Assembly: GCA_030668705.1 (NCBI GenBank)
Contig: DAOVFB010000003.1
Span: forward strand, 1-41,594
Reading direction: 5' to 3'
Length of the DNA: 41,594 bases
DNA from: Candidatus Stahliibacteriota bacterium
GTDB lineage: Bacteria > Hydrothermota > UBA3072
In this document: positions 8,101 through 27,204 of the stretch, one piece after another
How positions within the stretch are numbered: position 1 is the stretch's first letter
Layout of the letters: every line of letters begins with the position of its first letter
Program-made: the position numbers and the translations under genes
Notes under the pieces: model-generated
Seen by the model: only the letters and a program-made list of their open reading frames with translations
Told to the model about the DNA's origin: nothing
Database searches by the model: none

Positions 8101-8330
8101 AATACTCTTACCTCTGACAAAACCCCCAAACCTCCCACAACCACCGAATCTGCTTTTAGTGATGATAAAATATCCCACTCGATGTTACCAATACTACTTC
8201 CCTCTGGCATCATACCCACCAGTTTTTTTCCTATGAAGCTTTCTGCTCTACTATGAATTACCCCAGACAGTAGATGAAGGAGTATAAAAAAAAGAAAAAT
8301 GGATACCCAAAGTCCTATTCGTTTCTTCAT
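5166..8330 (-). CDS. tamB: TamB-like translocation/assembly module protein (DUF490/AsmA-like)
   Basis: 1054 aa, N-terminal TM segment (ISIFLFFILLHLLSG-like), long repetitive beta-rich region, C-terminal 'VWYDGGALLLSGDLSVKQGNFYYFYRSFDVVKGEFEFRNSPELNPSIDIKAKT...' typical of the TamB C-terminus; start overlaps the upstream ORF stop (TAATG). Confidence 0.85.
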   Translation of the reverse strand: MKKRIGLWVSIFLFFILLHLLSGVIHSRAESFIGKKLVGMMPEGSSIGNIEWDILSSLKADSVVVGGLGVLSEVRVFYTPLGVLRRRVKNLSLKGARLNLSFSGSTKGRERSIPGLFYIEDFSVLGGCIQWEGREFLLNGKGRFFSTGDKLVLDVFKVSGSMDTLAFNITNGQLFIERLGSLIDMRELRIGHSKLRLSGDIGKRIEGKGKIYLRDLKTLFDIEGEGLVEVEFAYDSVLQFKGKSGSTSIEGFNLTPLEFQGTADSIVINGPLFAGFLKVKDKMISGDFKLNGLNMKDFREGLPESKLSGRVIFTYSGSENFKVKSAIQGTIEGAYLRDFNLDFEKMGERVIIDELEGYINGGRICFSGEYGALLKGDLVISGVEISPLLKYLGINGRALTYVDLNFQDKVYGVFSFDSLQYGSISIGLIDGNVNLLQKDGKFLGELAFVTQELLLKKNKIFEIGKGMVKLARQHMDFSGFVKSGEKQLNYSLRYFKDSLKLQELKIAYPGGWLMLDSPFSALLDKGIQIEEAKFKGNKSEKVGVFLDISDGDLAGRVKLDGFNLHVLEAFGLIDLPVSGVVEGLVTLSGKINKPAMSLDGNGRISWRGMGIGDSLNIELGYRDGSISLNDIVIFEGKKASRFNGSIDLLRNSLYVKADFDSAGRWIFYPLYEHIDARRVAVNGGVKLKGPLLAPEIYGEVDILKGSLLLVGPGIEIENIAANIEFDGSRALLKSSCISMSEGVIDAKGVMNVRERSFNVKVNVDKTPLNWQYVNALIDADLTVSKKEEKLRIEGDVDLNKTTITMPFQKKGNGGTKPPNLFLNIKFDASRGNVWIRNDMADMELKGGVGVWYDGGALLLSGDLSVKQGNFYYFYRSFDVVKGEFEFRNSPELNPSIDIKAKTIVQEEDTVFLDVSGTMRTPQFELYSKPARATADIMALLNLNLSWEDFSSLKAIEESVTETAFNYWVRQTFTKRFKERFGIDLIEMRGRGGHYEMIFGQYITEKLFVKARADILSYGISEIEAEYRFRRWGSIIAANNPEGETRLLFKFRWRY

Positions 8331-8806
8331 TACTTAAACAATTTATCGAAGAGCGCCTCTTCTTCCTTGCCATCCCCACTCTGGATATTCATTCTCTGCC
8401 TCTTTTCGTTTTCCTCTGCAAATATCTTCTTTAAATCATTGGCAAACTTCTCAGCCGATATCCTTACCGTACCAAGAAGCGAGCTTTCCTTAAATAAAAC
8501 TATAAGGATAAAAAGAGGGGTAATCTTTTTATAGAATAATTTCCATTCCCGCCCTTTAAGAAAGAACTGCTCAAACTCACATTCGTCAATGAGTTTTGCT
8601 AACTCCTGGGTAACATTAAAGACTCCGGTAAGCAAAGCTGTAATTGAAATTATTCTCCCCCCAAAATTTACGCCACGATGCTCCAGAATTTCACCACTTT
8701 TAGCAGCAAACACAGCATGTTCAGCATTTGTCAGGGCAAGAAATCGCTTGAGGGAATGCTCTATCCTTCTCTGTATTTCTGCGGATAGGATAATATAATT
8801 TGTCAC
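8330..8806 (-). CDS. Roadblock/LC7-like domain protein (divergent)
   Basis: 158 aa with roadblock-like pattern 'NAEHAVFAAKSGEILEHRGVN...ITALLTGVFNVTQELAKLI...FKESSLLGTVRISAEKFANDLKKIF'; in the Roadblock cluster. Confidence 0.55.
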   Translation of the reverse strand: MTNYIILSAEIQRRIEHSLKRFLALTNAEHAVFAAKSGEILEHRGVNFGGRIISITALLTGVFNVTQELAKLIDECEFEQFFLKGREWKLFYKKITPLFILIVLFKESSLLGTVRISAEKFANDLKKIFAEENEKRQRMNIQSGDGKEEEALFDKLFK

Positions 8807-9139
8807 CTATAATAGTTCAGCTATCAATCTTGCCCCACGACGAAGCTTTAATCTTACCTTACCGGTATCAACCCCAGGGGCTGTGATAACAGTTAGAATA
8901 AACTCTTCTCTGGCTATCATAAAAATATTTCCATTCTCTGCCATTGAAAATATAGAAAATTCAGCAGTAATTTGCATCTGATTCGCTATCTCATTTGTTA
9001 CTTCGGCAATAAGAGCTGAAACCAGGGTTTCATTAATGCTTTTTTTGCACAGGTAATCCACAATCTCCCCTTCTTTATCTATGACAAAACAACCCAACAC
9101 TCCCGTAGGTGAAATTAAATCTCTCATTACCTCCTTCAT
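8807..9139 (-). CDS. Roadblock/LC7 domain protein (MglB-like)
   Basis: 110 aa 'ISPTGVLGCFVIDKEGEIVDYLCKKSIN...SALIAEVTNEIANQM...FSIFSMAENGNIFMIAREEFILTVITAPGVDTGKVRLKLRRGARLIAELL'. Confidence 0.75.
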   Translation of the reverse strand: MKEVMRDLISPTGVLGCFVIDKEGEIVDYLCKKSINETLVSALIAEVTNEIANQMQITAEFSIFSMAENGNIFMIAREEFILTVITAPGVDTGKVRLKLRRGARLIAELL

Positions 9140-9813
9140 TAATCGACCTCCAGAATACTTTTGGTTCTTTCAAACACCTCTCTTATCCTGCCTTCTACGC
9201 TGGCAAAGTGGATATCCCGTCTGGCGAGCACTATGAGTCTCAACGAAACTGTTCCAAAAACAAATATGTTCCCACCAGGTAATTCAAAGAACACTACCTT
9301 CAAAACCCCAAGACCTATGTTCTTTGTCGTCCCATCTATTCTATTATAGACTGTAGTGATTATTGCCCCCGTAGAATCATCATCAAGAGGCAAATCGAGT
9401 TCTGCCTGTATTGGTGAACCAATTTCATCAACGAGTATAACGCCCGTGACACCTTCTATTTTTAATATCTTATCCAGCTCCCTTCTCAGGACACCTTTTA
9501 AGGGGATCTCTTCCACTGCTTTCTCTAATCCTTCTTCCTCCCCTATAGAACTGAGTAACTCCTTTATGTTTTGATTCTTCGGATCTATCTTCTCTGCTTC
9601 TCGCAACAAAAGAACTGCCTTCTCTCTATTGCCTTCCTCTGAGTAAATCTTCCCGAGACTAAAATAAGGTTCAGCTATATTCCTATTTTGTTCTATTGCT
9701 GTTTCGAGAAGTCCCTTTGCTTCCTCAATTAAACCATTTTGGACATAGAGATCAGCAAGGGATATAAGGACATCTAACGAACTTGCATCGCTTTGAAGTC
9801 CATCCTGAGTCAT
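9139..9813 (-). CDS. TPR + C-terminal Roadblock/LC7 domain protein
   Basis: 224 aa; N-terminal TPR repeats ('AEPYFSLGKIYSEEGNREKAVLLLREAEKIDPKN'); C-terminal 'LDKILKIEGVTGVILVDEIGSPIQAELDLPLDDDSTGAIITTVYNRI...NIGLGVLKVVFFELPGGNIFVF'. Confidence 0.8.
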   Translation of the reverse strand: MTQDGLQSDASSLDVLISLADLYVQNGLIEEAKGLLETAIEQNRNIAEPYFSLGKIYSEEGNREKAVLLLREAEKIDPKNQNIKELLSSIGEEEGLEKAVEEIPLKGVLRRELDKILKIEGVTGVILVDEIGSPIQAELDLPLDDDSTGAIITTVYNRIDGTTKNIGLGVLKVVFFELPGGNIFVFGTVSLRLIVLARRDIHFASVEGRIREVFERTKSILEVD

Positions 9814-10823
9814 CTGGACACCTCCCGATTAAATATCTTTTTTTGCAACTCCGTAACCAGATCGAGGTTTTCCTTTATTTCTTTCTTTCGTTTTTCCTCT
9901 TTACTTAAAAGGAGACACGAATTCCATTCGGAAATTGCCTCCATAAATTTCCCTGAAGCCAGATAATAATAACCCAACTCATAAATAATCCTCGGGTCAT
10001 CTGAATACCTGCTCTTTAATTCGGAAAGGATCTGGATACCCTTCTCATACTCTCTTCTGTTCCAAACCCCATTAAGTTCCTTCAACTTCATTTCAACCTC
10101 ATCCTCTTCCTTCCTGGCTTCCCTTAAAATATCATCCACTGCTATCCTTTTCTCCGTAATAATTCCCGTCATAATCATCCCATAGAGGGATTTCAGAACA
10201 GCAAATTCATCCCCAATCTCCGCAATAAGATCGGTTATAGTCCGCTTCCCGTCTATTAGAGAAAGAATCCTCCATTCCATTCTATCAAGATTTATCTGCT
10301 CCATCTCTATAATCTCAGAAGAAACTTCAAGAAGTATATCGCGAGAAGGGATTACTTCCTCCATCTTCGACATTTCGTCCATCCTCCTCGCAGCTTCCAG
10401 GATTATGTTCTCTATCTTCATTTCTAATTCTAGGGAATCAGGAACAGAAAAATCACTCTCCTCAAAACTAAAATATCCCGATTTAATCAGGAAAAGGGGA
10501 TAGATTACCTCTTCAACAATCTTTTTAAATAACACTTTAAAGGTATTCCCTGTCATTACCTGTTTCTCTATGATGTAATCTATAAACCCCTCGCCTTTCA
10601 GGGACGAAATTTCCTCCCTGCCTACTAAGTCACGTCTCTGCATCTCCTCCTTTAACCTATCTGCCAGATCAATATAAGCGAGTTTCCCATCCTTAAAATA
10701 AATAGTATAATTCTTCTTACTTTCATAATCAGTTAAGCTAAGTGTGCCTCGTTTATCAGTGAGCGATATCAACTGGAATAATTCAAAAAGTCCCAATTCC
10801 GAAATGGGAGCCTCAATTGGCAT
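9810..10823 (-). CDS. PATAN/DUF4388-like domain protein with winged-helix-like and TPR-like segments
   Basis: 337 aa; N-terminal 'LGLFELFQLISLTDKRGTLSLTDYESKKNYTIYFKDGKLAYIDL' is DUF4388-like; C-terminal TPR-like 'DPRIIYELGYYYLASGKFMEAISEWNSCLLL'. Confidence 0.75.
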   Translation of the reverse strand: MPIEAPISELGLFELFQLISLTDKRGTLSLTDYESKKNYTIYFKDGKLAYIDLADRLKEEMQRRDLVGREEISSLKGEGFIDYIIEKQVMTGNTFKVLFKKIVEEVIYPLFLIKSGYFSFEESDFSVPDSLELEMKIENIILEAARRMDEMSKMEEVIPSRDILLEVSSEIIEMEQINLDRMEWRILSLIDGKRTITDLIAEIGDEFAVLKSLYGMIMTGIITEKRIAVDDILREARKEEDEVEMKLKELNGVWNRREYEKGIQILSELKSRYSDDPRIIYELGYYYLASGKFMEAISEWNSCLLLSKEEKRKKEIKENLDLVTELQKKIFNREVSR

Positions 10824-13462
10824 TATATCTCTCCAGTAAGTTTGCGAAGCCTAAGGAGACTTTCGAGAGCCTCACTTGCCTGAAGCGACACTTCACTGTC
10901 TCCTGCTTTCTTAATTATAGTTTCCCAGAGATTCTCCGCTTTCTTATATTTGCCCGCCCTGAAATAAATAGAAGCAAGAGAATTATACGCTTTAATATTC
11001 TCCCCGTTAAAACTTATCGCCTGCTTCAGGCTCTCCACTGCTTTCCCTATCTTTCCAGTCATGCAATATGCCTTCCCCATCCATAGGGCAATATCACTAT
11101 CCGCCTTGATTACCCCCTTTGAATCATTAGCTGCCTTAATGGCCCCTTTATAATCTTTTAGTTTTAAACGCGTTTTGATTAACAACCTCAGGACATCCTT
11201 ATTTGTTGTATCTAATTTCCTGGCTTTAAGTAAAATACTCTCGGCTTCTTTAAAATTCTTCTTTCCAATTTTTAATTTTGCAAGTAATAAATAAGCATCT
11301 CCGGAAGGAGAGATAGAGAGACTCCTCTTAATATACGCTAAGACCTTCACTCTATTTCTTAAGGGTAGATAGAGAGAGCCAATCTCCCGCAGGATATCTG
11401 CATTGTTTTTCCAATCTGGAAAGCCCTTTAATATCCGAATAGCCTTTCCATATTCCTTTTTATGTTTAGAATAACGAGCTGAAACAAAATAAGGGAAGGG
11501 GTCTTTAACGTTCCTATCCCTTAAGATTTTGGCCATAGCATTAGCCTGCCCCCATTCACCATTTTGCACATAAACTGAAGCTAAAATCCTAACGGCTTCC
11601 TCATTATCGGGTATTAATGCGAAAAGTACGTCCTTTACTTCACCCAATAGTCCTTTATCCTTATATATCTTACCAAGAAGTATTAGTACTCGGGAATTCT
11701 CTGGTTCATGCTGCCTCACTTCATTTAAAACCTTTAGTGCTTCATCAAGTTTATTTTCCGCAAAGAGATGTTCTGCTTTCTCAATGTTCTCTTCCACATC
11801 GAAGGTTAAAATCTTCTCCTCTATCGCTCCAAATAGATTCTCAAATATTTCTTCTTCTCCTGCTTCTTCACCAACCACACCTCCCATTTCCATTTCCTCA
11901 GTTAATTCTCTGGCAACCAGAAGATCCAGCCTATCAGAATAGATATCCAATCCCAACTTAAATCTATTGCTGGTATAAAAAGGATTTATCTCCATTGCCT
12001 TTTTTGTTGCTTCCAATGCCCTATCATACTTACCAATACGAGAAAAAGCGAAACCGAGATTATAATATGCCTCTGCAAAACCATCATCCCTATCTACTGC
12101 CTGTTGAAATTGATGAATGGCTGATTCAAATCTCTCAGTACTCAAATAAACAGAACCAAGATAATTGTACGGCAATGGGTATTCCTCTTTTAACTGTATC
12201 ACTTTCTTAAATAACCTCTCTGCCTTATCAAAATCTCCCCTGCTCATATGAATCAAACCAATATTCAGATAGGGGTCGGGATAATCTGGATTGAGTTTAT
12301 TTGCCTTCTTAAAACACTCAAAAGCCTTTCCTGGGTTTCTTAAATGATAACTCACCACTCCAAGATTATTCCAGGAAACTGCATAATTCCTGTCTTCGGA
12401 AATAGCTCGCTCATACCATGATACTGCCTCAGTAAGTCTCCCAAGCCTGTGACAGGCAATGCCTAGATTATTAGCTACTTTCGGCGAGTCAGGATTATCC
12501 TTAAGGGCTTCAGAGTATACTGAAATAGCATCTTCATTCTTGCCCAGAAATAAAAGTACTTCTCCTATCTGTTCCTTTATGAGTGGATTGCCGGGGTCTA
12601 CCTCCTTTGCTCTTCGCAGTTCCCTGAGCGCTTCTTCAAACATTCCTTTGTTCTTATAGGTGAGCCCTATTACATAATAACCGAAGAACGGTTGGTCTTT
12701 CACCATACTCTTCGAAATCGAAAGAAAATCTTCGTATCCCTTCTGCCTGTATATTCCTAATCCAAGATTCGGTTCTGTCTTCCCGTATCTTGGATTCAAC
12801 TGGACCGCCTTATTCGCCGCCTCCTTTGCTTTATCAAATCTGCCCTCCTCGCCATATGCAAAGGAAAGCAAATAATAGGTCTCTGCATCTTTAGGGTCAA
12901 GTTTGATGGCTTTCTTTAATTCATTTATTGCGTGGGGGAAAACACCCAGATTATAATAAACCTCCCCTAAATACTTATGGGCCGAACTTAAGTCACCGCG
13001 TATACGTATAGCTTTCTTAAAGGCTTCAATGGCAGGTTCATAAAAACCTATGGACTTACAGGAAATACCCATCTCTATTAGTGCATCCTTATCAGTGGGA
13101 TTGTGCCGGAGATACTTATTATAATGTTTTAGTGCATCATAGTAATCTCCAGTACTCTTATATGCTCTGGCTAATTTCAATCTTGCTTCTGCACCATTTG
13201 GCGCCTTCGCTACCTCCTTTTTCAATCTTTCAACATCTTCATCGTAATACCCTGTTGTCCTGTATATATAATCAAGATTATTCTTTGCAAGTGTAAAATG
13301 GGGCTCTATCTCAAGAGCTCTTTTCAACTCCTCAACTGCATCCTTTATCAAACTCTTGTTATAGTAAACAATAGCAAGATTATTATGAGCCCCTGGATCA
13401 TCAGGGTCTATTTTTTGGGCAAAAAGTTTTAAAATATTCTTTTCCTGATTAGATATTTCCAA
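10823..13462 (-). CDS. Large tetratricopeptide-repeat protein
   Basis: 879 aa with many TPRs, e.g. 'AVSWNNLGVVSYHLRNPGKAFECFKKANKLNPDYPDPYLNIGLIHMSRGDFDKAERLFKKVIQL'; no signal peptide evident. Confidence 0.92.
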   Translation of the reverse strand: MEISNQEKNILKLFAQKIDPDDPGAHNNLAIVYYNKSLIKDAVEELKRALEIEPHFTLAKNNLDYIYRTTGYYDEDVERLKKEVAKAPNGAEARLKLARAYKSTGDYYDALKHYNKYLRHNPTDKDALIEMGISCKSIGFYEPAIEAFKKAIRIRGDLSSAHKYLGEVYYNLGVFPHAINELKKAIKLDPKDAETYYLLSFAYGEEGRFDKAKEAANKAVQLNPRYGKTEPNLGLGIYRQKGYEDFLSISKSMVKDQPFFGYYVIGLTYKNKGMFEEALRELRRAKEVDPGNPLIKEQIGEVLLFLGKNEDAISVYSEALKDNPDSPKVANNLGIACHRLGRLTEAVSWYERAISEDRNYAVSWNNLGVVSYHLRNPGKAFECFKKANKLNPDYPDPYLNIGLIHMSRGDFDKAERLFKKVIQLKEEYPLPYNYLGSVYLSTERFESAIHQFQQAVDRDDGFAEAYYNLGFAFSRIGKYDRALEATKKAMEINPFYTSNRFKLGLDIYSDRLDLLVARELTEEMEMGGVVGEEAGEEEIFENLFGAIEEKILTFDVEENIEKAEHLFAENKLDEALKVLNEVRQHEPENSRVLILLGKIYKDKGLLGEVKDVLFALIPDNEEAVRILASVYVQNGEWGQANAMAKILRDRNVKDPFPYFVSARYSKHKKEYGKAIRILKGFPDWKNNADILREIGSLYLPLRNRVKVLAYIKRSLSISPSGDAYLLLAKLKIGKKNFKEAESILLKARKLDTTNKDVLRLLIKTRLKLKDYKGAIKAANDSKGVIKADSDIALWMGKAYCMTGKIGKAVESLKQAISFNGENIKAYNSLASIYFRAGKYKKAENLWETIIKKAGDSEVSLQASEALESLLRLRKLTGEI

Positions 13463-13463
13463 T

Positions 13464-14114
13464 TTATAAAAGATCCATTGCTTTTAACATGGTAGCTAAC
13501 CCATCAGTATCAGGTATGAGCAGTAGATAGGCATCTAATTCTTTCCTTGGTTCCTTGAAATGGAAAATAGTCTTAACACAGAATACATATTCTTCTTCTC
13601 CCGAGAACTCCAGATAGGCACTGGATATAATCGCTCTAAAATCATCTCTAACAATAAAGGGAACTGAAGGTAGGAGCATTAGACCAAGAAATTCAGAAAT
13701 TGCACTGAGATACGAACTGCACAATATATTGGCTACCTCTTGAATGGATGAAATCCCCATCTCGCTGATCTCTCTATCCCCCTCTATTTCTTCGTTTAAC
13801 AATATATGAATTAATGTCTTTGCATCTTTATCACTCATCACTATCAAATTCCTCCCCGTAACATCTCCAAAGAACTTGGTAAGAGCAGCCACAGTAATAC
13901 CAACGTTCCTCCCAAGAAGTTCAGGGGTCTTTTCGATAGGCATAACCTCTATCCTTGGTACCTCCACACCTACCTCTTTCCCTAACATCTGAGTCAGTGC
14001 CGTTGCTGCGTGTCCCCCGCCGATATTAGCAGACTCCTTTATTCCGTCCAATTGTAATTCCTTAAGCTCCTTTATTTTCATATCTCCTCCTATATCTGAA
14101 GCTTGGCAAATCAA
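13464..14114 (-). CDS. cheC: CheC-family CheY-P phosphatase
   Basis: 216 aa; two ExxN sites, 'DGIKESANIGGGHAATALTQML' and 'GISSIQEVANILCSSYLSAISEFLG'; likely start at internal ATG ~14081 (MKIKELKELQ), still overlapping the end of cheA. Confidence 0.88.
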   Translation of the reverse strand: MICQASDIGGDMKIKELKELQLDGIKESANIGGGHAATALTQMLGKEVGVEVPRIEVMPIEKTPELLGRNVGITVAALTKFFGDVTGRNLIVMSDKDAKTLIHILLNEEIEGDREISEMGISSIQEVANILCSSYLSAISEFLGLMLLPSVPFIVRDDFRAIISSAYLEFSGEEEYVFCVKTIFHFKEPRKELDAYLLLIPDTDGLATMLKAMDLL

Positions 14115-15867
14115 GTATCAGACAGGGTTTCCCATCTCCAATTATCGTAATTCCTGTATACTCCTTTATTGTATTAAGTGGAAGTGGTAAAGGTTTAACA
14201 ACAGCGTCAGAGCTTCCTTTAAAATTATCAACTATTAGAGCAAATCTTTCATTCTCTATCTCTACAATAACACAAGGAAGAATGGCCTTACTCTTTTTAT
14301 CATTGGAATAGTCTTTCATAATATCAGAAAAACGGTAAACCGGTAAGATTTCCCTTCGGAGTAACATGATCTCCTTACCCATTAGTTGAGAGATTGTCAC
14401 CTCGGGAATCATTATAGTCTCATCAACAAACGTCATTGGAAGTGCAAAAAGTTGCCCTTTTGATTCAATGAGATAAACCCTTATAATGGACATTGAAAGA
14501 GGCATTTTCATTGAGATGGTTGTTCCCTTATTTTTCTCTGTTTTAATATTTACGCTACCACCCACTGATCTCACAATATCATTCACTACATCAAGACCAA
14601 CCCCACGACCGGAAACTTCGCTTACCGTATTAAGAGTTGTAAAGCCGGGAAGGAAAAGAAGTCTCAGCAGCTCCTTTTTTGTAAGAGTATCTACCTCCCC
14701 CTCTCTCACCCAGCCTTTCTCAAGCGCAGTTAAGAGCACCTCCTTTTCATCTATACCTTTACCATCATCACTTATTTCTATTAGGATATCTCCTTTAGCC
14801 CTCTTTGCAGAGACTGTTATCCTCCCCGTAGCGACTTTACCCGCATTTTCTCGCACTAAAGGGGGTTCAATACCGTGACTAACAGCATTTCGTATTAGAT
14901 GTATTAATGGATCACTGATACCTTCAAGAAGGGAACGGTCGACCTCTATATCAGAACCATAAATATCAAGGGATACTTCTCTACCAAGTTCTTTACTCAA
15001 ATCTCTTACGTAACGAGGAAATTTATTAAAAATTAAAGAAAGAGGAACTAATCTTATCCTTGTAACAATATTCTGCAACTCTTTTAAAGAGCTATTGTGT
15101 GCTTCTAGAATTCTTTTATTTTGCTCCTCCTCTATATCCTTTAATAAAACCGACAATTGCGATGAAGAAACAACTAATTCTCCAACCACATTCTGCAGAT
15201 AATCCAAAAGCTCTACATTGACACGAATACCACCAACTCCGCCCTTAGAAACCCTTTTCTCTTTTTCTTCTCCTTCGATTCTGATCTCTTCTATCCCATC
15301 CATAGTTGATAGCATTTCCCTGACCCCTTCCGCGTCAGCACACCTGACCCAGAATGTATCCCCCATTTCTCCAGCTTTGATTTCCTCAAAGGAAGGCTTT
15401 ATCTCCTCAATTTCTTCCCTTTCCTCTATTCTTTTAATTATTACCGCTGCTCTGGCGCCAGGTAATTCTATATCTTTTTTGAGTGTTATCTTTATAAAGA
15501 GTAGATTCCCCTGTTGTATTCTTTTCCCTAAACCTTCTCTATCCTCTTCTCCGATCTTACCTACCAGGTATTCTAATCTATCTATCTCTTCAAACATTCT
15601 GTCAATTATCCTCTTATCCACTCCTTTACCGTATTTTTTTATCTCCTCAAGACGTTCCTCAAGATCATGGGAAATACTCTCAATCTCTTTATACCCTAAT
15701 GAAGCTGCCATACCTTTTAGAGTATGGAATATTCTAAAGGCTTCAGTAATAATTTCATCGTTCGTGGGATCTTTCTCCATTTTTACTACTATCTCTTCCA
15801 GGCGATCCAGATATTCCCCTGCTTCTTCTTTGAAGAGCTTTATATATTGACTTCTATCTCCATTCAT
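14062..15867 (-). CDS. cheA: Chemotaxis histidine kinase CheA
   Basis: 601 aa; HPt 'AFRIFHTLKGMAASLGY' (His48), HATPase 'DPLIHLIRNAVSHGIEPP', 'ISDDGKGID', 'EVSGRGVGLDVV', C-terminal CheW-like domain. Confidence 0.97.
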   Translation of the reverse strand: MNGDRSQYIKLFKEEAGEYLDRLEEIVVKMEKDPTNDEIITEAFRIFHTLKGMAASLGYKEIESISHDLEERLEEIKKYGKGVDKRIIDRMFEEIDRLEYLVGKIGEEDREGLGKRIQQGNLLFIKITLKKDIELPGARAAVIIKRIEEREEIEEIKPSFEEIKAGEMGDTFWVRCADAEGVREMLSTMDGIEEIRIEGEEKEKRVSKGGVGGIRVNVELLDYLQNVVGELVVSSSQLSVLLKDIEEEQNKRILEAHNSSLKELQNIVTRIRLVPLSLIFNKFPRYVRDLSKELGREVSLDIYGSDIEVDRSLLEGISDPLIHLIRNAVSHGIEPPLVRENAGKVATGRITVSAKRAKGDILIEISDDGKGIDEKEVLLTALEKGWVREGEVDTLTKKELLRLLFLPGFTTLNTVSEVSGRGVGLDVVNDIVRSVGGSVNIKTEKNKGTTISMKMPLSMSIIRVYLIESKGQLFALPMTFVDETIMIPEVTISQLMGKEIMLLRREILPVYRFSDIMKDYSNDKKSKAILPCVIVEIENERFALIVDNFKGSSDAVVKPLPLPLNTIKEYTGITIIGDGKPCLILDLPSFRYRRRYENKGA

Positions 15868-16232
15868 TATAATTTTAAGACCCTTTGAACCGCCTCAAGC
15901 ACCCGTGAGGGTTGGAATGGCTTCACCACATAATCTTTTGCACCCGCTTGAATTGCCTCGACTACCAGACTCTGGTGTCCCATCGCACTAACCATTACGA
16001 TCTTTGCATCTCTATCTTTTTCCATTATTTCTTTTACGGCATCAATTCCGCTCATATCAGGCATTATGATATCCATGGTTACAAGGTCAGGCTTATGTTC
16101 TAAATACTTCTCTACAGACATGGCTCCATTCTCAGCTTCAGAACAGATTTCGTAACCACCTTTTTTTAAAATATCCCCTAACATTTTCCTCATAAATATT
16201 GCATCATCTACTATTAAAACTCTTGCACCCAT
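15867..16232 (-). CDS. cheY: CheY-like single-domain response regulator
   Basis: 121 aa; 'RVLIVDDAIFMRKML', 'PDLVTMDIIMPDMSGIDAV', 'VSAMG', 'GAKDYVVKPF'. Confidence 0.96.
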   Translation of the reverse strand: MGARVLIVDDAIFMRKMLGDILKKGGYEICSEAENGAMSVEKYLEHKPDLVTMDIIMPDMSGIDAVKEIMEKDRDAKIVMVSAMGHQSLVVEAIQAGAKDYVVKPFQPSRVLEAVQRVLKL

Positions 16233-16246
16233 AAAACCTCCTTACA

Positions 16247-16651
16247 TCAAATTAACTCATCTACATCAATTATTATATATTTATCCTCTTCAATTTGAAC
16301 AATCCCTTTTATATACTTAGACTCTATCTTCTCCTCAAGGCTGGAAGGCACATCTTTCAACGCATCGGGTAAAAACTCATGAATAGTTAGAATTCTATCC
16401 GGTCTAAGGCCTACTAATGAATCTTTTATATTGCAGAGAATAATGTCAGGAGATGTTGCTCTCCCCTTAAAACCTACTTTCTTTTTAAGGTCAAAGATTG
16501 AGACAGTATCACCACGAAGGTTCATAACCCCTTCAATATATTCGGGAGTTAATGGGACGGGAGTAATTCTTACCCCCTCAACTATTTCTTTTACCTTCGA
16601 AAGATTCACACCAAAGAGCTTATCGTCAATTGTAAAGCTTAATATTTCCAA
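16247..16651 (-). CDS. cheW: CheW adaptor
   Basis: 134 aa; 'LSFTIDDKLFGVNLSKVKEIVEGVRITPVPLTPEYIEGVMNLRGDTVSIFDLKKKVG'. Confidence 0.95.
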   Translation of the reverse strand: MEILSFTIDDKLFGVNLSKVKEIVEGVRITPVPLTPEYIEGVMNLRGDTVSIFDLKKKVGFKGRATSPDIILCNIKDSLVGLRPDRILTIHEFLPDALKDVPSSLEEKIESKYIKGIVQIEEDKYIIIDVDELI

Positions 16652-16652
16652 T

Positions 16653-19600
16653 TTATTCTACCCCCATCCATTCAAAATGTGGATGATTCAATGGGTCAGG
16701 TTTAAATCCGTATACTCCTGGTCGAACGAGTGTAAAGCTAGTGTAATGAAGGAGAAACACAAAGGGCGCATCCTCCACTATCACACGCTCTGTCTTCCTG
16801 TAGATTTCCTCTCTCTTGACAGGATTTATCTCTCTAAGCCCTCCTTCTATAAGAGAATCAACCTCTTTGTTAGAATAGAAGGTCGAGTTCCCACTTGCTC
16901 CTTTTGAAGACGAGTGAAAGAGGGGAAAGAGAAAATTGTTTGGATCCCCTGTGTCGGCACCCCATCCAAGCAAGAAAAGCTGGGTCTCTCCGTTATGTGC
17001 TTTCTTTAGAAATTCACCCCAGGGATATTCCTCTATTTCTATTTGGACCCCTATGTTTGCAAATGACTTTTTAAGAAACTCCGCTCTCTTAAGGTTAATT
17101 GGGGAATCTTGTATAGTTAACTTATATACATCTGGTAGCCCATTTTGATAACCGGCTTCTTTCAAGAGGTCCCTTGCGGTGTGGGGATTATATCCATAAC
17201 CTCTAAGATTGGGATTATACACAGAAAGACTCGGGGGAAAAACTCCTCGAGACACTGTACCCAACCCCGAAGCAGTCTCCTTTATAAACACCTCTTTATT
17301 AACAGCATAATTAAGAGCCTGCCTTACCCTTCTATCGCTAAATGGTAAATCAGTTCTGTTAAAATTGAACCCCATATAGTTAACATTAAGATAATCGGAA
17401 GCGATGAGTTTATCCAGAAGGTCTGGATCCTCTCTTATTTTTGGGACATCTTCCGAAGAAACCTCAGTCACATCAACAAGATTCTCCTTAAAAGCTATAA
17501 GGCCACTATCAGCCTTTTTGTAGATTAGTCGGGAGGGATAGGGTGGTCCGAGCACATAATCTGTATGGGCCTCAAGAGTTATGTGACTTCCTTTTTCCCA
17601 CTCAACAAATTTGAAGGGACCTATACCTTTAGGTATCCTATTGGTGTCTTCTTTATAACTTTTCGATATGATAGACCCCGCAGTCGTTGCGAGATTCGAA
17701 ATCAAGGGCATAAACGGGGTTTTTAGTCTGATTATTATTGTATGAGGACTACCTACTCTTATACTATCAATTGGATCGAAAATGAATTTTTTTGGGCCTT
17801 CTTTTATCCTTTCAAGGGAGTATTTAATATCCTCGGCGTCAATCTTCTCACCGTTATGAGTCACCACATCATTCCTGATTGTAAAACGCCACTCTAAGGC
17901 ATCTTCAGATAATTCCCAATCCGAAACGATTAATGGATATACCTCTGCTCTGAAACTGAAATTAAAGAGACCACGATGTATGGAGGATGCCACTTTATTG
18001 GAATCAGCATCTCCAATCTTTACAGGGTCAAGGTTCAAAGGTTCCCTTGGAAGATACACTCTTAGTTCCTTGCCTTTATCCTTGCTAAGTATGTTAGGGG
18101 ACTGAATATCTCTCCAGGCGCCCATCATAATATTGTCCCCAATCTTCTTTTCTTTAGCCATTCTTTCTTCGATATCCCTTATTACTTCAATATTCTTATT
18201 CCCTGCAACAGTTATCAATTCAAATGAATCGGTTATTCCTGCCACAATATCCTTTTGCTTGTTAATAGATGGCTTAATGCTCGTTACTATTTCTGTGAGA
18301 TATTTTATCTGCTCTTCATTCCCCTCAAATGCATTTTCACATTCAAAAACCATATCTCTGAGACGATTAATTATTTCCATCAATTTTTGCACCATCATGT
18401 CCAACTTTTCTATTTCTTCCCTAACAGGATTAAAAAAGTCCCATAATCCTTTTGCTATCTCCGAATAATCATTTGAAAGAGATTGCATCTCTCCTACTAT
18501 CGCATCGAGTCCACTTAAATCACCGGATATTCTTGATGCTTCTATTTTCCCATACAGCGAGACTACCCTTGCCCTATCACAGAGGTCGTCTATCTCTTCT
18601 GCCAACCTACCAAGCCTAACCGAAACCATGTTAAGACTCTCCTGAATCTTCCCCACCTCTTTTATTTCCTCTATCTCTTTATCTATGAAGGATTTTATTT
18701 TGTTAATGCTATCTATCGACTGCCTTGCTTTTTCTAATGTTGAGGGAATAATTTCTTCTATCTTCTTCATACCTTCCCCAACCTTAGCCAGCATTTCTTG
18801 TATATCCTGTAATTCACTTAGGTCTAAACTTTCTGTAATTTGCCCTTCCTTTAAATTCTCTAAATCAGCAAGGCTATCTTCACTCAAGCTAAACATGACA
18901 TTCAGAGTTGAATCCAATTGAGGGATATTCCTTATAATATCAGGAGAGCTGAAGTCTCTCAAGTCCTGATGTAGATTGGAGTGATGCTCAATAATCTCAC
19001 CAATAGAATCTTTCTGGTCTTGCATAAGATTAATCTTCCCAGCCTTCAATATAAAATTTCTGGACAGTGATAGCAAGGAGTTGGCAATAACATCTATGTT
19101 CTGTCTTTTTGTATTTATCCTTTCGAGTAGTTCAATGAATTGGTCTATTGTCTCTATTATAAGAGAATTTTTACCCTTTAAATCATTAGAACTGAACTCC
19201 AGTTGCTCCTTAAATTCCTCAAAACTGGAAAGAGTATCCTCTATGGTCTTAAAATTATCCACTATTTTCTTCGACTCTTCTCCCAGTATTTCAAGGGATT
19301 CTACCATTGCATCTACCATCTTCAGGGATTGTCCTGTAAGATTTCCAAGCTCTCCAGCCACAACCTCAAAACCCCTGCCTGAACTTCCTGCCTGATAAGA
19401 TTTAATCTCGGCATTCCTTGCGGTATTGGAAGATGCCTGGTTGAGCTCAAGGAGTTTTTTGACAATAGAATTAATTTCTTCTCTCTTTCCCGTTAATCTA
19501 TCGAGCCTCTGGCTTAAGTTGTCTGTAATTTGAAAAAAGACTCTGATTTTTTCTAAAATTTCATTAGAAAAACTAAGGCCAAGGGAGAGCAATTCGTCAC

Positions 19601-19808
19601 TTTTTCTAATAGTTGAGCTAAAAGAATCTGAAGCTTCAGTAATAACCGACATAGCAGCGTAGAGATTCTTTAAGTCGTTTCTTACCCTCTCCAGTTCATC
19701 AGCACATTTTATCTGTTTATTAGAGATATTTTTTAATGAAGAATATGTGCTTCTGGACATATCCCTTAGTTCACTGATATTATCTCTAAGGTTATTATTT
19801 TTCTCCAT
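16653..19808 (-). CDS. Predicted soluble chemoreceptor-like protein: two tandem degenerate MCP signalling-tip regions + C-terminal SBP_bac_5-like (oligopeptide/nickel-type) binding domain
   Basis: 1051 aa; tip-like segments 'SSNTARNAEIKSYQAGSSGRGFEVVAGELGNLTGQS' (~aa 126-161) and 'ARVVSLYGKIEASRISGDLSGLDAIVGEMQSLSNDY' (~aa 413-448); from ~aa 578 SBP_bac_5-like 'LRVYLPREPLNLDPVKIGDADSNKVASSIHRGLFNF...WRFTIRNDVVTHNGEKIDAEDIKYSLERI...FSDRRVRQALNYAVNKE...YNPHTARDLLKEAGY...LFLLGWGADTGDPNNFLFPLFHS'; no signal peptide or obvious TM helix. Confidence 0.85.
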   Translation of the reverse strand: MEKNNNLRDNISELRDMSRSTYSSLKNISNKQIKCADELERVRNDLKNLYAAMSVITEASDSFSSTIRKSDELLSLGLSFSNEILEKIRVFFQITDNLSQRLDRLTGKREEINSIVKKLLELNQASSNTARNAEIKSYQAGSSGRGFEVVAGELGNLTGQSLKMVDAMVESLEILGEESKKIVDNFKTIEDTLSSFEEFKEQLEFSSNDLKGKNSLIIETIDQFIELLERINTKRQNIDVIANSLLSLSRNFILKAGKINLMQDQKDSIGEIIEHHSNLHQDLRDFSSPDIIRNIPQLDSTLNVMFSLSEDSLADLENLKEGQITESLDLSELQDIQEMLAKVGEGMKKIEEIIPSTLEKARQSIDSINKIKSFIDKEIEEIKEVGKIQESLNMVSVRLGRLAEEIDDLCDRARVVSLYGKIEASRISGDLSGLDAIVGEMQSLSNDYSEIAKGLWDFFNPVREEIEKLDMMVQKLMEIINRLRDMVFECENAFEGNEEQIKYLTEIVTSIKPSINKQKDIVAGITDSFELITVAGNKNIEVIRDIEERMAKEKKIGDNIMMGAWRDIQSPNILSKDKGKELRVYLPREPLNLDPVKIGDADSNKVASSIHRGLFNFSFRAEVYPLIVSDWELSEDALEWRFTIRNDVVTHNGEKIDAEDIKYSLERIKEGPKKFIFDPIDSIRVGSPHTIIIRLKTPFMPLISNLATTAGSIISKSYKEDTNRIPKGIGPFKFVEWEKGSHITLEAHTDYVLGPPYPSRLIYKKADSGLIAFKENLVDVTEVSSEDVPKIREDPDLLDKLIASDYLNVNYMGFNFNRTDLPFSDRRVRQALNYAVNKEVFIKETASGLGTVSRGVFPPSLSVYNPNLRGYGYNPHTARDLLKEAGYQNGLPDVYKLTIQDSPINLKRAEFLKKSFANIGVQIEIEEYPWGEFLKKAHNGETQLFLLGWGADTGDPNNFLFPLFHSSSKGASGNSTFYSNKEVDSLIEGGLREINPVKREEIYRKTERVIVEDAPFVFLLHYTSFTLVRPGVYGFKPDPLNHPHFEWMGVE

Positions 19809-19945: not shown

Positions 19946-21268
19946 ATGGTTTATTTTGATTGGGATTTAATAAAAGAAATACTACAAAAAGAAATCAACG
20001 AATCTGCTTATAAAGCTTGGTTTGCCAATATGGAGGTAGAGGCAGTGGAAGATGAAGACGTTTATTTCACAGTTCCAAACACGTTTACTGAAAACTGGAT
20101 AAGTGAACATTTTATAAATCACCTTAAAGCAGCTATAAAAGAGGCAACGAATAAAAATTTTAATATCCATTTCCTTGTAAAAGAAAAAGGAACAATAGGT
20201 AAACCAGAGCCTATAAAGAATACAATTAGGGTGCACGATAAAAGAAAAACATTTCTCTATGAAAGATATACTTTTAATTCCTTTGTAGTAGGAGATAACA
20301 ATAAATTTGCCTACGCAGCCGCTACAGCAGTTGCAAATGCTCCAGGACGTGCATATAACCCGCTCTTTATTTATGGCGGCGTGGGACTCGGCAAAACACA
20401 CCTACTCCAGGCAACAGGTAATAAAGTTTACAGTCAGTACCCAAATCTCCATATTCTTTATACCCAATCAGAAGAATTTTTAAACGAGATGATTAAATCC
20501 ATTCAAGAACATTCTACAGTAGAGTTCAAAAAAAAATACCGCGAGATAGACTTACTTCTTATAGATGATATCCATTTTTTAGCACGAAAAGAGAGACTCC
20601 AGGAAGAATTCTTTCATACATTCAATGCGCTTTTTGAAGCAAAAAAACAAATTGTTATAACATCGGACAGACCCCCTAAGGATATTCCAGACCTTGAAGA
20701 GAGATTAATTTCAAGGTTCCACTGGGGTTTAATGGTAGACCTCCAACCTCCTGACTTTGAAACTCGTCTTGCAATCCTCAGGGCAAAGACACAAGAAGAC
20801 GATATCGGGATAGACGATGAGATACTTAAATTTATAGCTTTAAATATACAATCTAACATAAGGGAATTAGAGGGATGTTTAATTAAGTTGTTAGCTCATG
20901 CCTCTATTTATAAAACAGATATTGATATAGATTCAGCAAAGGGGGTTCTTAGCGATATTATTAAAGAAAAAGACAAGCGTCTTACCCAGGAAGGTATAAT
21001 GAAAGTAGTCTCGGAATTCTATAATATACCCATAGAGATGATAAAAGGGGATAGTCGTTTAAAAAGTATTGTCTATGCCCGTCAGATAGTTATTTATCTC
21101 GCAAGAGAATTAACAAATCTATCGTTAAAAGAGATTGGCGATGGTCTTGGTAATAGAGATCATTCTACAATCCTACACTCTCACAAGAAAATTGCTAACC
21201 TTATAAAAAGGGATGTAGAAACAAAAGAGGAAATCTTGAAGATAAAAAGTTCATTTACAGGAGCCTGA
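19946..21268 (+). CDS. dnaA: Chromosomal replication initiator DnaA
   Basis: 440 aa; 'NPLFIYGGVGLGKTHLLQATGN', 'LLLIDDIHFL', C-terminal 'GNRDHSTILHSHKKI' signature. Confidence 0.99.
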   Translation: MVYFDWDLIKEILQKEINESAYKAWFANMEVEAVEDEDVYFTVPNTFTENWISEHFINHLKAAIKEATNKNFNIHFLVKEKGTIGKPEPIKNTIRVHDKRKTFLYERYTFNSFVVGDNNKFAYAAATAVANAPGRAYNPLFIYGGVGLGKTHLLQATGNKVYSQYPNLHILYTQSEEFLNEMIKSIQEHSTVEFKKKYREIDLLLIDDIHFLARKERLQEEFFHTFNALFEAKKQIVITSDRPPKDIPDLEERLISRFHWGLMVDLQPPDFETRLAILRAKTQEDDIGIDDEILKFIALNIQSNIRELEGCLIKLLAHASIYKTDIDIDSAKGVLSDIIKEKDKRLTQEGIMKVVSEFYNIPIEMIKGDSRLKSIVYARQIVIYLARELTNLSLKEIGDGLGNRDHSTILHSHKKIANLIKRDVETKEEILKIKSSFTGA

Positions 21269-21425
21269 ATGTTAAAAGAAATTTATCCACAGGTTATCTT
21301 CAAGGTTATACATAAAATAAATACGGGGTGTTTATGCAGTAATATACTTTTACAGTTTTTCCACTTTTCCACACCCACAACAATAACTACAAATAAAAAT
21401 AGAATAGTAAGATAGGAGGAAGAAT
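21269..21425. other. Candidate oriC (dnaA-dnaN intergenic region)
   Basis: Perfect DnaA box TTATCCACA (21283-21291), near-matches TTATACATA (21306-21314) and TTTTCCACA (21365-21373), then an AT-rich tract before dnaN. Confidence 0.65.
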
Positions 21426-22505
21426 ATGTTATTCTCAATAGAAACAGAAGAGTTTTTAAAAGAACTAAGTATAGTTAATCAAGTTATTCCTAAACACACA
21501 ACGTTCCCTGTACTTTCTAATATTCGTGTAGAAGCAAAAAATAAAACAATACATATTTTTGGAACAGATCTTGATACTTCAATTAGCTATACAACAAATC
21601 TTGCTAATATTGAGGAAGAAGGTGTAATGATCATACCAGCAAAAACCCTCTATTCTATGATACGAGAATTAAAAGGTAAAGCTACATTTAAAAAAGAAGG
21701 GAATAGAATAAAAGTCGAGTACGACCAGGGATATTTTTTCTTGCCTTTAATGGAAGAGGAAGACTTTCCCCTAGAGCCTGACATAAATAAAGAAAATGCA
21801 TTCAAGATAAATACAAAAGAGATAAAAAAACCAATAAATAAATTAATTTTTATTATTCCCGAGGACACTGCAAAGAGAAATATGAGCGGAATGTTATGGG
21901 AGTATAAAGAAAGTAAGTTAAAAATGGTAGCAACGGATAGTTTTAGACTAGGATACAGTGAGATAAGTATTGACCTAGGAAAAGAATCCTTTGAGATAGT
22001 TATACCTCCAAAGATACTCAAACAAGTTTCTTTATCTGAAAGCAAAGAGATGTGGGTGGGAATAGATGAAAGTCGGATTTATTATATTGGGAATGAATTT
22101 ACAATGGTTTCAAGGTTAATAAAGGTTGACTTCCCTAATTATAAATCTGCTATACCCGATAAAAACGAAAATATTCTAAAAATAGAAAGAGATTCCTTTA
22201 TCTCTTCTCTCCGGAGGGTTTCAATATTCTCTAATGATAAATCAAGAACTGTAAAAATGGATATAGGAGGGGACCTATTGCTCAGCGCTTCTTCGGAAAT
22301 AGGAGAAGGAAAAGAAGAAATCAACGGAGAATACAGTGGTAAAGAAATAAATATCGCTTTGTCTGCTAACTATCTTATTGAAATTCTCCATAACATTAGT
22401 TCAAAGAAGGTATCCTTAAAATTTGGAGAATCAAACAAACCTGTTATAGTAGAGGGAGAAGAAAAAGATATTCTATATCTATTGATGCCGGTTGTTATTG
22501 AGTAG
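21426..22505 (+). CDS. dnaN: DNA polymerase III beta sliding clamp
   Basis: 359 aa; N-terminal 'HTTFPVLSNIRVEAKNKTIHIFGTDLDTSI', C-terminal 'ILYLLMPVVIE'; directly follows dnaA; RBS 'aggagg'. Confidence 0.97.
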   Translation: MLFSIETEEFLKELSIVNQVIPKHTTFPVLSNIRVEAKNKTIHIFGTDLDTSISYTTNLANIEEEGVMIIPAKTLYSMIRELKGKATFKKEGNRIKVEYDQGYFFLPLMEEEDFPLEPDINKENAFKINTKEIKKPINKLIFIIPEDTAKRNMSGMLWEYKESKLKMVATDSFRLGYSEISIDLGKESFEIVIPPKILKQVSLSESKEMWVGIDESRIYYIGNEFTMVSRLIKVDFPNYKSAIPDKNENILKIERDSFISSLRRVSIFSNDKSRTVKMDIGGDLLLSASSEIGEGKEEINGEYSGKEINIALSANYLIEILHNISSKKVSLKFGESNKPVIVEGEEKDILYLLMPVVIE

Positions 22506-23194: not shown

Positions 23195-24703
23195 TTATCT
23201 TTTTCTTATTGTCGTCCTGACACTACCCCAACCAATTATCTGTCTCTCTCTATAAAAGATAGCAAAGATTGTTACCGGTTGATTTTGTTTTCCGCCCGTA
23301 AGGCGATTAGTATAGAATGTACCATTTGGTGAAATCTTACCCGCATCCTGTGGCGAAAGATACCAGAATACTTTATAACCTTCATTAAGGATTGTTTTTA
23401 CCCTGATTCGTATACTGAAACCTTCAATTATTTCGTTAGGTAGATATAGATGTATGTTTGGGTTTGCTCCGATAACAATGAGAGCTTTGCCAGGTTTTAT
23501 ATTTATGTTTTCCAATGGTTTTGCGATAATAATCCCTGAGCCGTTTCTCTTAGGTGTAAAAGTTCCATACTGGTTAACAATACCAAGATCCGCTGGAACC
23601 ACCTCCCAGTGAACAGGTATGGTTTGAAGTGTTCTAAATGTATACTCTTCTCCTAAATTAAGTTCCTTAAAACGTGGTGTTACGATTAAATCTTTAAACT
23701 TACCTGGAACAATTGATATCCTGGCGGAAGCAATTCCACCCCCAAAACGCTGGGGTACTATTGCGACTACCCTACCAATGATAGGATTTTTCCCTGCAAA
23801 GAAAGTCCCATCCCTTCTTATAAAACCACACTGATTGGGAATTACCTTCCAGCGGACGGGTATATCCTTTTCTCCTAACTCGGTTGTTCCAATCTTTACC
23901 TGAAAGCGCACCATTTCTCCAGGATGAAGGGTTGTTTTTTCGGGTATAATCCTTACTTTGAGTTTTCCCGACACGATGACTATAGCCCTTCCGAGTTTTT
24001 CAACTCCTCCTTCCTCTGTTTTTGCAGTTATAATACCTCTTCCGGGGATTTTAGCGTGAAACAATCCATTTTTATCTATTACTCCTATGTCTTCTGGTTC
24101 TATCCTCCAAATTACTTCACCACCCTCTTTAATGAAAAACTGTATTTTCTCACCAGCTTTAATTTTTATGAACTTCGGAACTATTTCCAGTGTTTTTAAA
24201 CTTCCTTTTACTCTAATAAATGCACTTACAATATTCTTATTATCCAATATAGCTACCACGCGTCCCCTACCCGGTTTTTTTGCAGTGAATTGCCCATCAT
24301 TGATATAACCTATTTCTTCCGGTATAATCTTCCATTTTAAAGGTTTCCCATTTAAAACTCTAAATTGAATTTTGTCTCCCGGTTCTATAACAACTATATC
24401 AGGGACTATCTTTGCTCTCTTTCCTCCCGTAATCCTTATATATGTATAACCTGCAATAGTTTTTCCATCCACCGTTGCCCTACATCTTAATACCCCCCTA
24501 CCTTCTCTTTTTGGGATAAAAACACCACCTACTACCTGCCCAAGGTCATAGGGGACAACGTCAAATTTAGTTTCCCCTGTAAGCAATTTCCCGTCTTCAT
24601 CCATTATTGTTACAGTGAATGGGATTTTCTCTCCCGTGCCTCCTTCTATCGGGTTAGGTGAAATTTGAAGCTCTAAGGAAAGCAATAGCAGAATAAACAT
24701 CAT
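23195..24703 (-). CDS. Secreted protein with six tandem Ig-like (BIG-type) repeats
   Basis: 502 aa; recurring 'W-x-[IV]-x-P-x-x-x-G-x-[IV]-x-x-x-G-x-F...G[RS]G' motif: 'WKIIPEEIGYINDGQFTAKKPGRG', 'WRIEPEDIGVIDKNGLFHAKIPGRG', 'WEVVPADLGIVNQYGTFTPKRNGSG'; hydrophobic N-terminus. Confidence 0.75.
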   Translation of the reverse strand: MMFILLLLSLELQISPNPIEGGTGEKIPFTVTIMDEDGKLLTGETKFDVVPYDLGQVVGGVFIPKREGRGVLRCRATVDGKTIAGYTYIRITGGKRAKIVPDIVVIEPGDKIQFRVLNGKPLKWKIIPEEIGYINDGQFTAKKPGRGRVVAILDNKNIVSAFIRVKGSLKTLEIVPKFIKIKAGEKIQFFIKEGGEVIWRIEPEDIGVIDKNGLFHAKIPGRGIITAKTEEGGVEKLGRAIVIVSGKLKVRIIPEKTTLHPGEMVRFQVKIGTTELGEKDIPVRWKVIPNQCGFIRRDGTFFAGKNPIIGRVVAIVPQRFGGGIASARISIVPGKFKDLIVTPRFKELNLGEEYTFRTLQTIPVHWEVVPADLGIVNQYGTFTPKRNGSGIIIAKPLENINIKPGKALIVIGANPNIHLYLPNEIIEGFSIRIRVKTILNEGYKVFWYLSPQDAGKISPNGTFYTNRLTGGKQNQPVTIFAIFYRERQIIGWGSVRTTIRKR

Positions 24704-25446
24704 CCCTCCTTATGGAATGTAATTGCTTGTTGGACTGGTTCTAATAGTGAGAGGTAATGAATTCCATTCTCCAATACAGGAAGGGAATCGCTTTTTATAT
24801 AGAGTATATTCGAGTTCTTTGTATCAAAAACCTTCTTCTCTCCATCTATATTCAACGCGATTTCTTTTCCTGGCTCTTTCAAGATAATTACCACGTCAAA
24901 TTCTTCTCCTACAACAGATCCATCTTCGGGGAAGACAAGGCGTGTTTCCTCAAACTCAGGTTTAGTGGATTTTTTAGATACAAATACTTCCTTTTCACTC
25001 TCTTTTTCTTCTTGGTCTATGGCAACCTCAGGTTTCCTATATGGATGCTCTATAGGTTCTTTTTTCTCAATTTGCCTGCGAGGTTCGGTTAATAGTTCAG
25101 GTTTTTCAACTTCTTTTGTGATGTGAATCCCAGGTTTATTCAGATAAGTAAATAGGATAATAAAAAAGATTAACATGGCAGCAGCACCAAGAGTTACATA
25201 CTTCCAGTTAATTCTGTATATTCTTCTTTCGGTTGTTTCTTTGATTATCGTACTTATAAGATCCTTTGGAATAAGAACATCTTCTTTTGTCTTTTTTATT
25301 AGCTCTGCGATCTTTTCCTTCTCCTCCAGCTTTTTTTGGCATTCCTTGCAACTCCTGAGGTGTTCCTTTAGAATTTTTTCTTCATTAATATTAAGTTCGC
25401 CATCAATATATCCTTGAATCATATCATCAAATCTGTTATTTTTCAT
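24700..25446 (-). CDS. Membrane anti-sigma factor (zf-HC2) with Ig-like extracytoplasmic domain
   Basis: 248 aa; N-terminal 'LKEHLRSCKECQKKLEEKEKI' zinc-finger, one TM 'LGAAAMLIFFIILFTYL'; 4-nt overlap with the sigma gene. Confidence 0.88.
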   Translation of the reverse strand: MKNNRFDDMIQGYIDGELNINEEKILKEHLRSCKECQKKLEEKEKIAELIKKTKEDVLIPKDLISTIIKETTERRIYRINWKYVTLGAAAMLIFFIILFTYLNKPGIHITKEVEKPELLTEPRRQIEKKEPIEHPYRKPEVAIDQEEKESEKEVFVSKKSTKPEFEETRLVFPEDGSVVGEEFDVVIILKEPGKEIALNIDGEKKVFDTKNSNILYIKSDSLPVLENGIHYLSLLEPVQQAITFHKEG

Positions 25447-25958
25447 ATTCTTTCCTTTATAAGGTTTGTAAGTGTTGAAATACCTCGGTGAAGTCTCGAG
25501 CGCACCGTACCAACAGGTATCCCTAATATTTTTGCTATAGTTGCATAGTCATTGTCTTCATAGTAACGCAGGATAAGTACAGCCTGGTAATTCTCGGGGA
25601 GGTCCTGTATGGTATTTCTTATAAGTGCCCTATCCGCTTCCTTAAAGAAATTTTTCTCTGGATTTTCTTTCATCTTGATAGGTTTGATATCATCGATTGA
25701 TATTATCTTCCTTCTAGCGTTCTTCCTCCTATATTGAAATACCCTGTTTAGGGCGATTCTATATATCCACGTATATATTGAAGCATCACCGCGAAAACTA
25801 CTGAATCCTTTCCATGCATTCACAAATACATCTTGAGTTAGATCCTTAGTGGTTTCATAATCCTCTGTCATATTGTATATCATTTTAAATATCCTTGGCG
25901 TGAAATCCCTGGCAATTTCCTCAAATCTTCTCCTTTGATCTTTCTTTTCATTTTCCAT
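25443..25958 (-). CDS. ECF sigma-70 factor (RpoE-like)
   Basis: 171 aa; region 2 'DLTQDVFVNAWKGFSSFRGDASIYTWIYRIALNRVFQYRRK', region 4 'LPENYQAVLILRYYEDNDYATIAKILGIPVGTVRSRLHRG'. Confidence 0.97.
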   Translation of the reverse strand: MENEKKDQRRRFEEIARDFTPRIFKMIYNMTEDYETTKDLTQDVFVNAWKGFSSFRGDASIYTWIYRIALNRVFQYRRKNARRKIISIDDIKPIKMKENPEKNFFKEADRALIRNTIQDLPENYQAVLILRYYEDNDYATIAKILGIPVGTVRSRLHRGISTLTNLIKERI

Positions 25959-25979
25959 AGTCTCCGCTAAACTTGTTTT

Positions 25980-27155: not shown

Positions 27156-27204
27156 TATTTTCTCCTTTCTATTTCTTTAGATGAAAAAAGCCCAAAATAG
27201 TTCC

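Follow-up and report, generated by a model that had tools for sequence, protein, structure and literature searches.

A presumptive soluble chemoreceptor with two tandem signalling hairpins and a C-terminal SBP_bac_5 domain

The gene at 16653..19808 on the minus strand of the window (the whole 41,594-nucleotide stretch that was analysed) encodes a protein of 1051 aa that is presumably a soluble, cytoplasmic chemoreceptor with a full SBP_bac_5 domain at its C-terminus. Judged by sequence, its first ~570 residues comprise two chemoreceptor hairpins in tandem, built from four equal heptad arms, an arrangement that suggests a natural single-chain 'dimer' in which one chain supplies both halves of a receptor dimer. 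The protein is most likely a methylation-independent sensor that controls CheA, and its cytoplasmic ligand would be amine-bearing or peptide-like. Our overall model, a single-chain receptor with paired hairpins that senses such a ligand in the cytoplasm, controls CheA and acts on a pilus, has in our estimate a probability of roughly 0.55. An earlier note on this DNA had described the fusion; absent from it were the minus strand, the second, degenerate hairpin, the asymmetry of the tips, the lack of methylation sites and the conserved operon.

A conserved, soluble fusion

The receptor ORF starts with ATG, and the plus strand over 16653-19808 holds many stops. The MCPsignal profile (PF00015) scores 51.4 bits against the 1051-aa protein (Pfam cut-off 34.6) in two stretches on its N-terminal side and matches both hairpins; when each hairpin is scored alone the values are 33.3 and 26.2 bits, both below the cut-off. 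SBP_bac_5 (PF00496) matches residues 622-969 with E 1.9e-77 over positions 1-366 of a profile of 368, so the complete C-terminal domain claimed in the earlier note holds. Its claim of a soluble protein also withstood scrutiny. No transmembrane or signal segment was found in the receptor, whose highest 19-residue hydropathy mean (1.23) lies within the SBP fold, against 3.29 and 2.31 for transmembrane MCPs and 1.63 for the signal of a lipoprotein SBP from the same genome. Among 28 full-length relatives there is likewise no transmembrane segment, signal or lipobox, and the 19-residue mean is 1.5 or less in 28/28.

SBP_bac_5 sensors, those of the DppA type included, normally work outside the cell, and characterised transport SBPs of family 5 are all extracytoplasmic. 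One could therefore suppose that the receptor is exported or attached to the membrane by some unknown route and that its SBP domain senses outside solutes as usual. This is very improbable: signal, lipobox and transmembrane segment are absent in 29 sequences, MCP tips, like CheW/CheA, belong to the cytoplasm and no membrane-crossing stretch lies between tip and SBP domain, and cytoplasmic SBP_bac_5 sensors exist in SgrR/DsvR, which combine an HTH with SBP_bac_5 (PMC13060122). Nor was a signal peptide or lipid anchor found in the 29 sequences, or a transporter gene in the operon. We place the SBP domain of the receptor in the cytoplasm, as an inference from these data.

The family-profile search, counted by hand, gave 55 whole-profile matches to the full-length fusion in 45/147 genomes of the phylum, spread over some 13 families, with two copies in some of these; the initial search had returned 60 relatives, with G105 and G106 among the carriers assembled as a single contig. 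Full-length relatives, at 21-61% identity, occur throughout the phylum. The chance that an assembly chimera or a frameshift joined an MCP gene to a DppA gene, an artefact the earlier note had allowed for, is negligible; it is ruled out by full-length conservation of the fusion in dozens of genomes, single-contig ones included, and at the same place in the operon. No fusion was found in 598 genomes of two other phyla, in which the best two candidates per genome were scored and the matches were SBP-only. Frames of 832 and 747 aa from other phyla, considered as fusions, proved to be ordinary lipoproteins; in the former, the frame runs spuriously upstream across a permease gene. A 690-aa SBP paralogue in the same genome, considered as a second soluble fusion, is also an ordinary lipoprotein. 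A scan of genome contigs for related loci returned SBP-domain relatives only, and a scan of viral contigs gave no match. Elsewhere in the same genome, a 685-aa SBP_bac_5 lipoprotein (L045:2083-4140, plus strand) ends in a stretch that reads TonB C-terminal-like; relatives of ~690 aa occur in most genomes of the phylum.

Two hairpins with different tips

Hairpin 1 (residues 1-286; 18951..19808, minus strand) and hairpin 2 (residues 287-572; 18093..18950, minus strand) each consist of two heptad arms that meet at a tip. Tip 1 (residues 124-154, ARNAEIKSYQAGSSGRGFEVVAGEL; 19347..19439, minus strand) lies within an MCPsignal match and has N132, K136, G144 and G146 conserved, and tip 2 (residues 408-445, VVSLYGKIEASRISGDLSGLDAIVGEM; 18474..18587, minus strand) has Y419, E423 and R426 conserved. 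The power of the 3.5-residue periodicity is 32.5 and 31.7 in the arms of hairpin 1 and 28 and 37 in those of hairpin 2; this periodicity is absent from the SBP domain. Aligned by hhalign, the two hairpins match with a probability of 98.1 (E 1.2e-13), in register and tip on tip. Coiled coils may align by chance, which is unlikely here given the exact register, the tip-only comparison (96.9) and the spacing of the tips. Among relatives the tip-to-tip distance has modes at 285 and 299 residues, two heptads apart, as fits the gain or loss of one heptad per arm, and prolines and alignment gaps cluster at residues 287-297, the midpoint between the tips. An AF2 model of residues 1-584, run with no alignment, reached a pLDDT of 52 and was used for helix breaks only, without confirming a four-helix bundle; it places helices at 2-139 and 145-284 in hairpin 1, and breaks at 139-145, 284-331 and 428-434, all at low confidence.

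Chemoreceptor signalling hairpins normally reside on two separate protein copies. Here the two hairpins of one chain probably form the four-helix bundle intramolecularly, since packing within the chain is the simplest arrangement for arms of equal length with a short turn at the midpoint. The hairpins of one chain could instead pair with those of a second chain, as a swapped or a parallel homodimer, and the resulting larger assemblies would hold two SBP domains. Subunit swapping has been seen in single-chain Tsr (PMC4692393), and no sequence feature of the receptor forces pairing within the chain. A constant encounter of tip 1 with tip 2 would account most readily for the fixed difference between the tips, though such an encounter could also occur in a swapped dimer. 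On balance we regard pairing between chains as somewhat unlikely.

The tips were mapped to Tsr positions by alignment, and residues were counted over 29 family sequences. At the place of Tsr N381, tip 1 has N (29/29) and tip 2 has Y (28/29); at that of E385, K (27/29) faces E (29/29); and at that of R388, tip 1 has H or Q (26/29) and tip 2 has R or K (29/29). The canonical set N381/E385/R388 is thus complete in neither tip, each of which retains part of it, and the GKGFEVVA stretch after the turn is kept by tip 1 and missing from tip 2. E385 and R388 we take to be positions of receptor-receptor contact in Tsr. Tip 2 may have retained the contacts within the trimer, and tip 1 those on the side of the kinase. 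A more specific form of the model is a heterodimer in one chain, with the inner, trimer-contacting role and the outer, CheA/CheW-contacting role on different hairpins, which would be driven by a single cytoplasmic DppA-like sensor and would work without methylation; this version we put forward tentatively, judging it rather less probable than its opposite.

Such an asymmetry bears on a difficulty of the field. In ordinary receptors the subunits are identical, and genetics cannot distinguish what the inner and the outer subunit each do within a trimer of dimers. Parkinson's group built single-chain Tsr to separate these functions, an effort that subunit swapping hampered; single-chain Tsr is functional in E. 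coli (PMC4692393). The residues required for each function could be read from a conserved natural protein whose two tips differ.

A DppA-like sensor without methylation sites

The sensor domain occupies residues 580-1051 (16656..18071, minus strand). Its closest sequence relatives are a Bacillus family-5 protein (5u4o) and DppA (1dpp, E 6.7e-59), and Foldseek aligns the AF2 model of this part with DppA-type structures at a TMt of 0.74-0.84. In the alignment with 1dpp, D952 (16953..16955, minus strand) is equivalent to Asp408, the residue by which DppA binds the amine, and is D in 28/29 sequences and E in one. D901 (17106..17108, minus strand) stands at the place of the carboxylate-binding Arg355, a position that is D or E in 21/29 and R in 0/29. 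The pair that is swapped in entry 8z1z (R383D+D436R, precursor numbering) is therefore incomplete in this family. The peptide-like ligand proposed in the earlier note survives in part: the DppA-like fold and the retained Asp408 equivalent are in its favour, but a simple dipeptide is not the likeliest candidate, because the Arg355 equivalent has been replaced, usually by an acid. From these residues we would predict a ligand that bears a free amine and has no carboxylate where a dipeptide has one, or else a peptide of greater length.

The loss of the Arg355 equivalent could also be taken to mean that the SBP domain is a structural or protein-docking module that binds no small molecule, the receptor responding to something else; in the cytoplasm a transporter partner is not needed. 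The pocket-side residues W930, W949 and D952 are nevertheless at least 90% conserved among 29 divergent proteins, as expected of a binding domain under selection, and we consider a docking role unlikely. If the domain does bind a ligand, as we prefer to think, the receptor is a candidate for sensing peptides or amines inside the cell, in a phylum that is uncultured and apparently pilus-motile.

Signalling is most likely independent of methylation. Scored with the consensus [ASTG]2-x2-[EQ]2-x2-[ASTG]2, 28/29 relatives have no site, and the single match in the remaining one sits at a tip. The missing consensus is not decisive by itself, because of two transmembrane MCPs in the same genome one has 6 matches and the other also has 0. 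The receptor operon contains neither CheR nor CheB; the genome has a CheR gene at another place. A second chemosensory locus of this genome (L052:169-5130, plus strand) comprises CheB, a TPR protein, an AAA ATPase, a CheW-like protein and a transmembrane MCP.

Operon, proposed output and known relatives

The receptor gene opens a tightly packed operon, all on the minus strand, in which it is followed by CheW (16247..16651; Pfam CheW 3.9e-27), a CheY-type single receiver domain (15867..16232; Response_reg 7.8e-30), a CheA (14062..15867) with Hpt, P2, dimerisation, ATPase and CheW-like domains by Pfam and an HTLKG phosphorylation motif recognised by reading, and a CheC-type CheY-P phosphatase (13464..14114; Pfam CheC 4.7e-16, two stretches). 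Downstream are a large TPR protein (10823..13462; Pfam, conserved place), a DUF4388 protein (9810..10823; 6.1e-23), a TPR protein with a Roadblock-like part (9139..9813; TPR_8 2.5e-10, Robl_LC7 8.2e-4, below cut-off), and two Roadblock-like proteins at conserved places, B (8807..9139; weak Robl_LC7/MAPKK1_Int, below cut-off) and A (8330..8806; weak Robl_LC7, below cut-off). This order is retained in most families examined and also in one single-contig genome; in several genomes the receptor gene and the che genes are separated. The operon's type of CheA (E<=1e-60) is present in 43/45 fusion genomes, and 43/45 genomes with this CheA carry the fusion, one more having a fusion cut by the contig end.

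Around this pattern some further arrangements were seen. dnaA and dnaN (window 19946-22505) lie divergent from the receptor gene at a distance of 137 bases, as they also do in two close relatives (L053, L054). Two other loci, L096 and L097, have the TPR gene of the operon without receptor, CheA or CheW, and L097 also keeps CheY, DUF4388 and Roadblock, which suggests either that the sensor was lost or that the downstream proteins have a function of their own. In G095 (L095:7122-8924, minus strand), a CheA of this type stands beside a conventional-looking transmembrane MCP of 601 aa in place of the fusion, possibly the ancestral state.

In our model, one hairpin comprises arms 1 and 2 and the other arms 3 and 4, and the two would combine into a single long four-helix bundle. 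Because the number of arms is even, both tips would share one end of this bundle, and the N-terminus, the midpoint turn and the junction to the SBP domain would all be found at the opposite end. Of the diverged tips, perhaps one is turned toward partner receptors and the other toward CheA/CheW. The DppA-like Venus-flytrap would sit on arm 4 at the base, one sensor per bundle rather than two. A cytoplasmic, amine-bearing and peptide-like ligand would close it, shifting the end of arm 4 and, through the bundle, the tips, and setting CheA activity via the co-encoded CheW; CheA would phosphorylate CheY, and CheC would strip the phosphate. Without methylation-based adaptation, the output would track the level of the ligand rather than its gradient. 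The earlier note had read a C-terminal sensor as a reversal of the usual order of modules, and this we do not uphold: the helical part should have its two ends together at the bundle's base, which puts the sensor in the same place as the periplasmic sensor of Tsr, and TlpD is a precedent.

The likely target would be the activity or polarity of a type IV pilus, reached through the TPR, DUF4388 and Roadblock proteins. Several type IV pilus ATPases are encoded in the genome, and the flagellar export protein FHIPEP was not found there. DUF4388 is presumably the PATAN domain. In cyanobacteria the PATAN domain links chemosensory systems to pili (PMC7690835). With pilus ATPases present, FHIPEP missing and DUF4388 in the operon, output to a pilus or to polarity is plausible.

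Each feature of the receptor has a precedent; their combination and the fixed asymmetry of the tips seem to have none as far as we have seen. DppA, itself among the closest solved sequence relatives of the sensor, serves both transport and, via Tap, chemotaxis in E. coli, but is a separate periplasmic protein with Asp408 and Arg355 both present. TlpD of Helicobacter pylori resembles the receptor in being a soluble MCP whose ligand-binding domain is C-terminal and in lacking the usual methylation sites; it differs in having a CZB zinc domain and one short hairpin per chain and in forming a homodimer (PMC12871147). SgrR/DsvR are DNA-binding, non-exported regulators with a C-terminal SBP_bac_5 sensor (PMC13060122), whereas their N-terminal HTH and transcriptional output come with no chemosensory part; with the receptor, cytoplasmic sensing by SBP_bac_5, so far seen in SgrR-type transcription factors, would reach chemosensory arrays as well. 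Natural soluble single-chain MCPs are mentioned, with function unknown, by Mowery and others (PMC4692393). They share with the receptor two MCP hairpins in one soluble chain, and the receptor has in addition its fixed tip difference, one SBP_bac_5 sensor per chain and its own che operon. No description of an MCP-SBP_bac_5 fusion was found in the open-access papers searched.

Two further regions of the window deserve mention. At 23195-28707 an ECF sigma factor, a zinc-finger anti-sigma-like protein, FecR and two proteins of unknown family follow in a row. At 29356-31821 a large protein has a C-terminal match to sorting domains of the FlgD_ig/CHU_C type, which suggests type IX-like secretion in this lineage.
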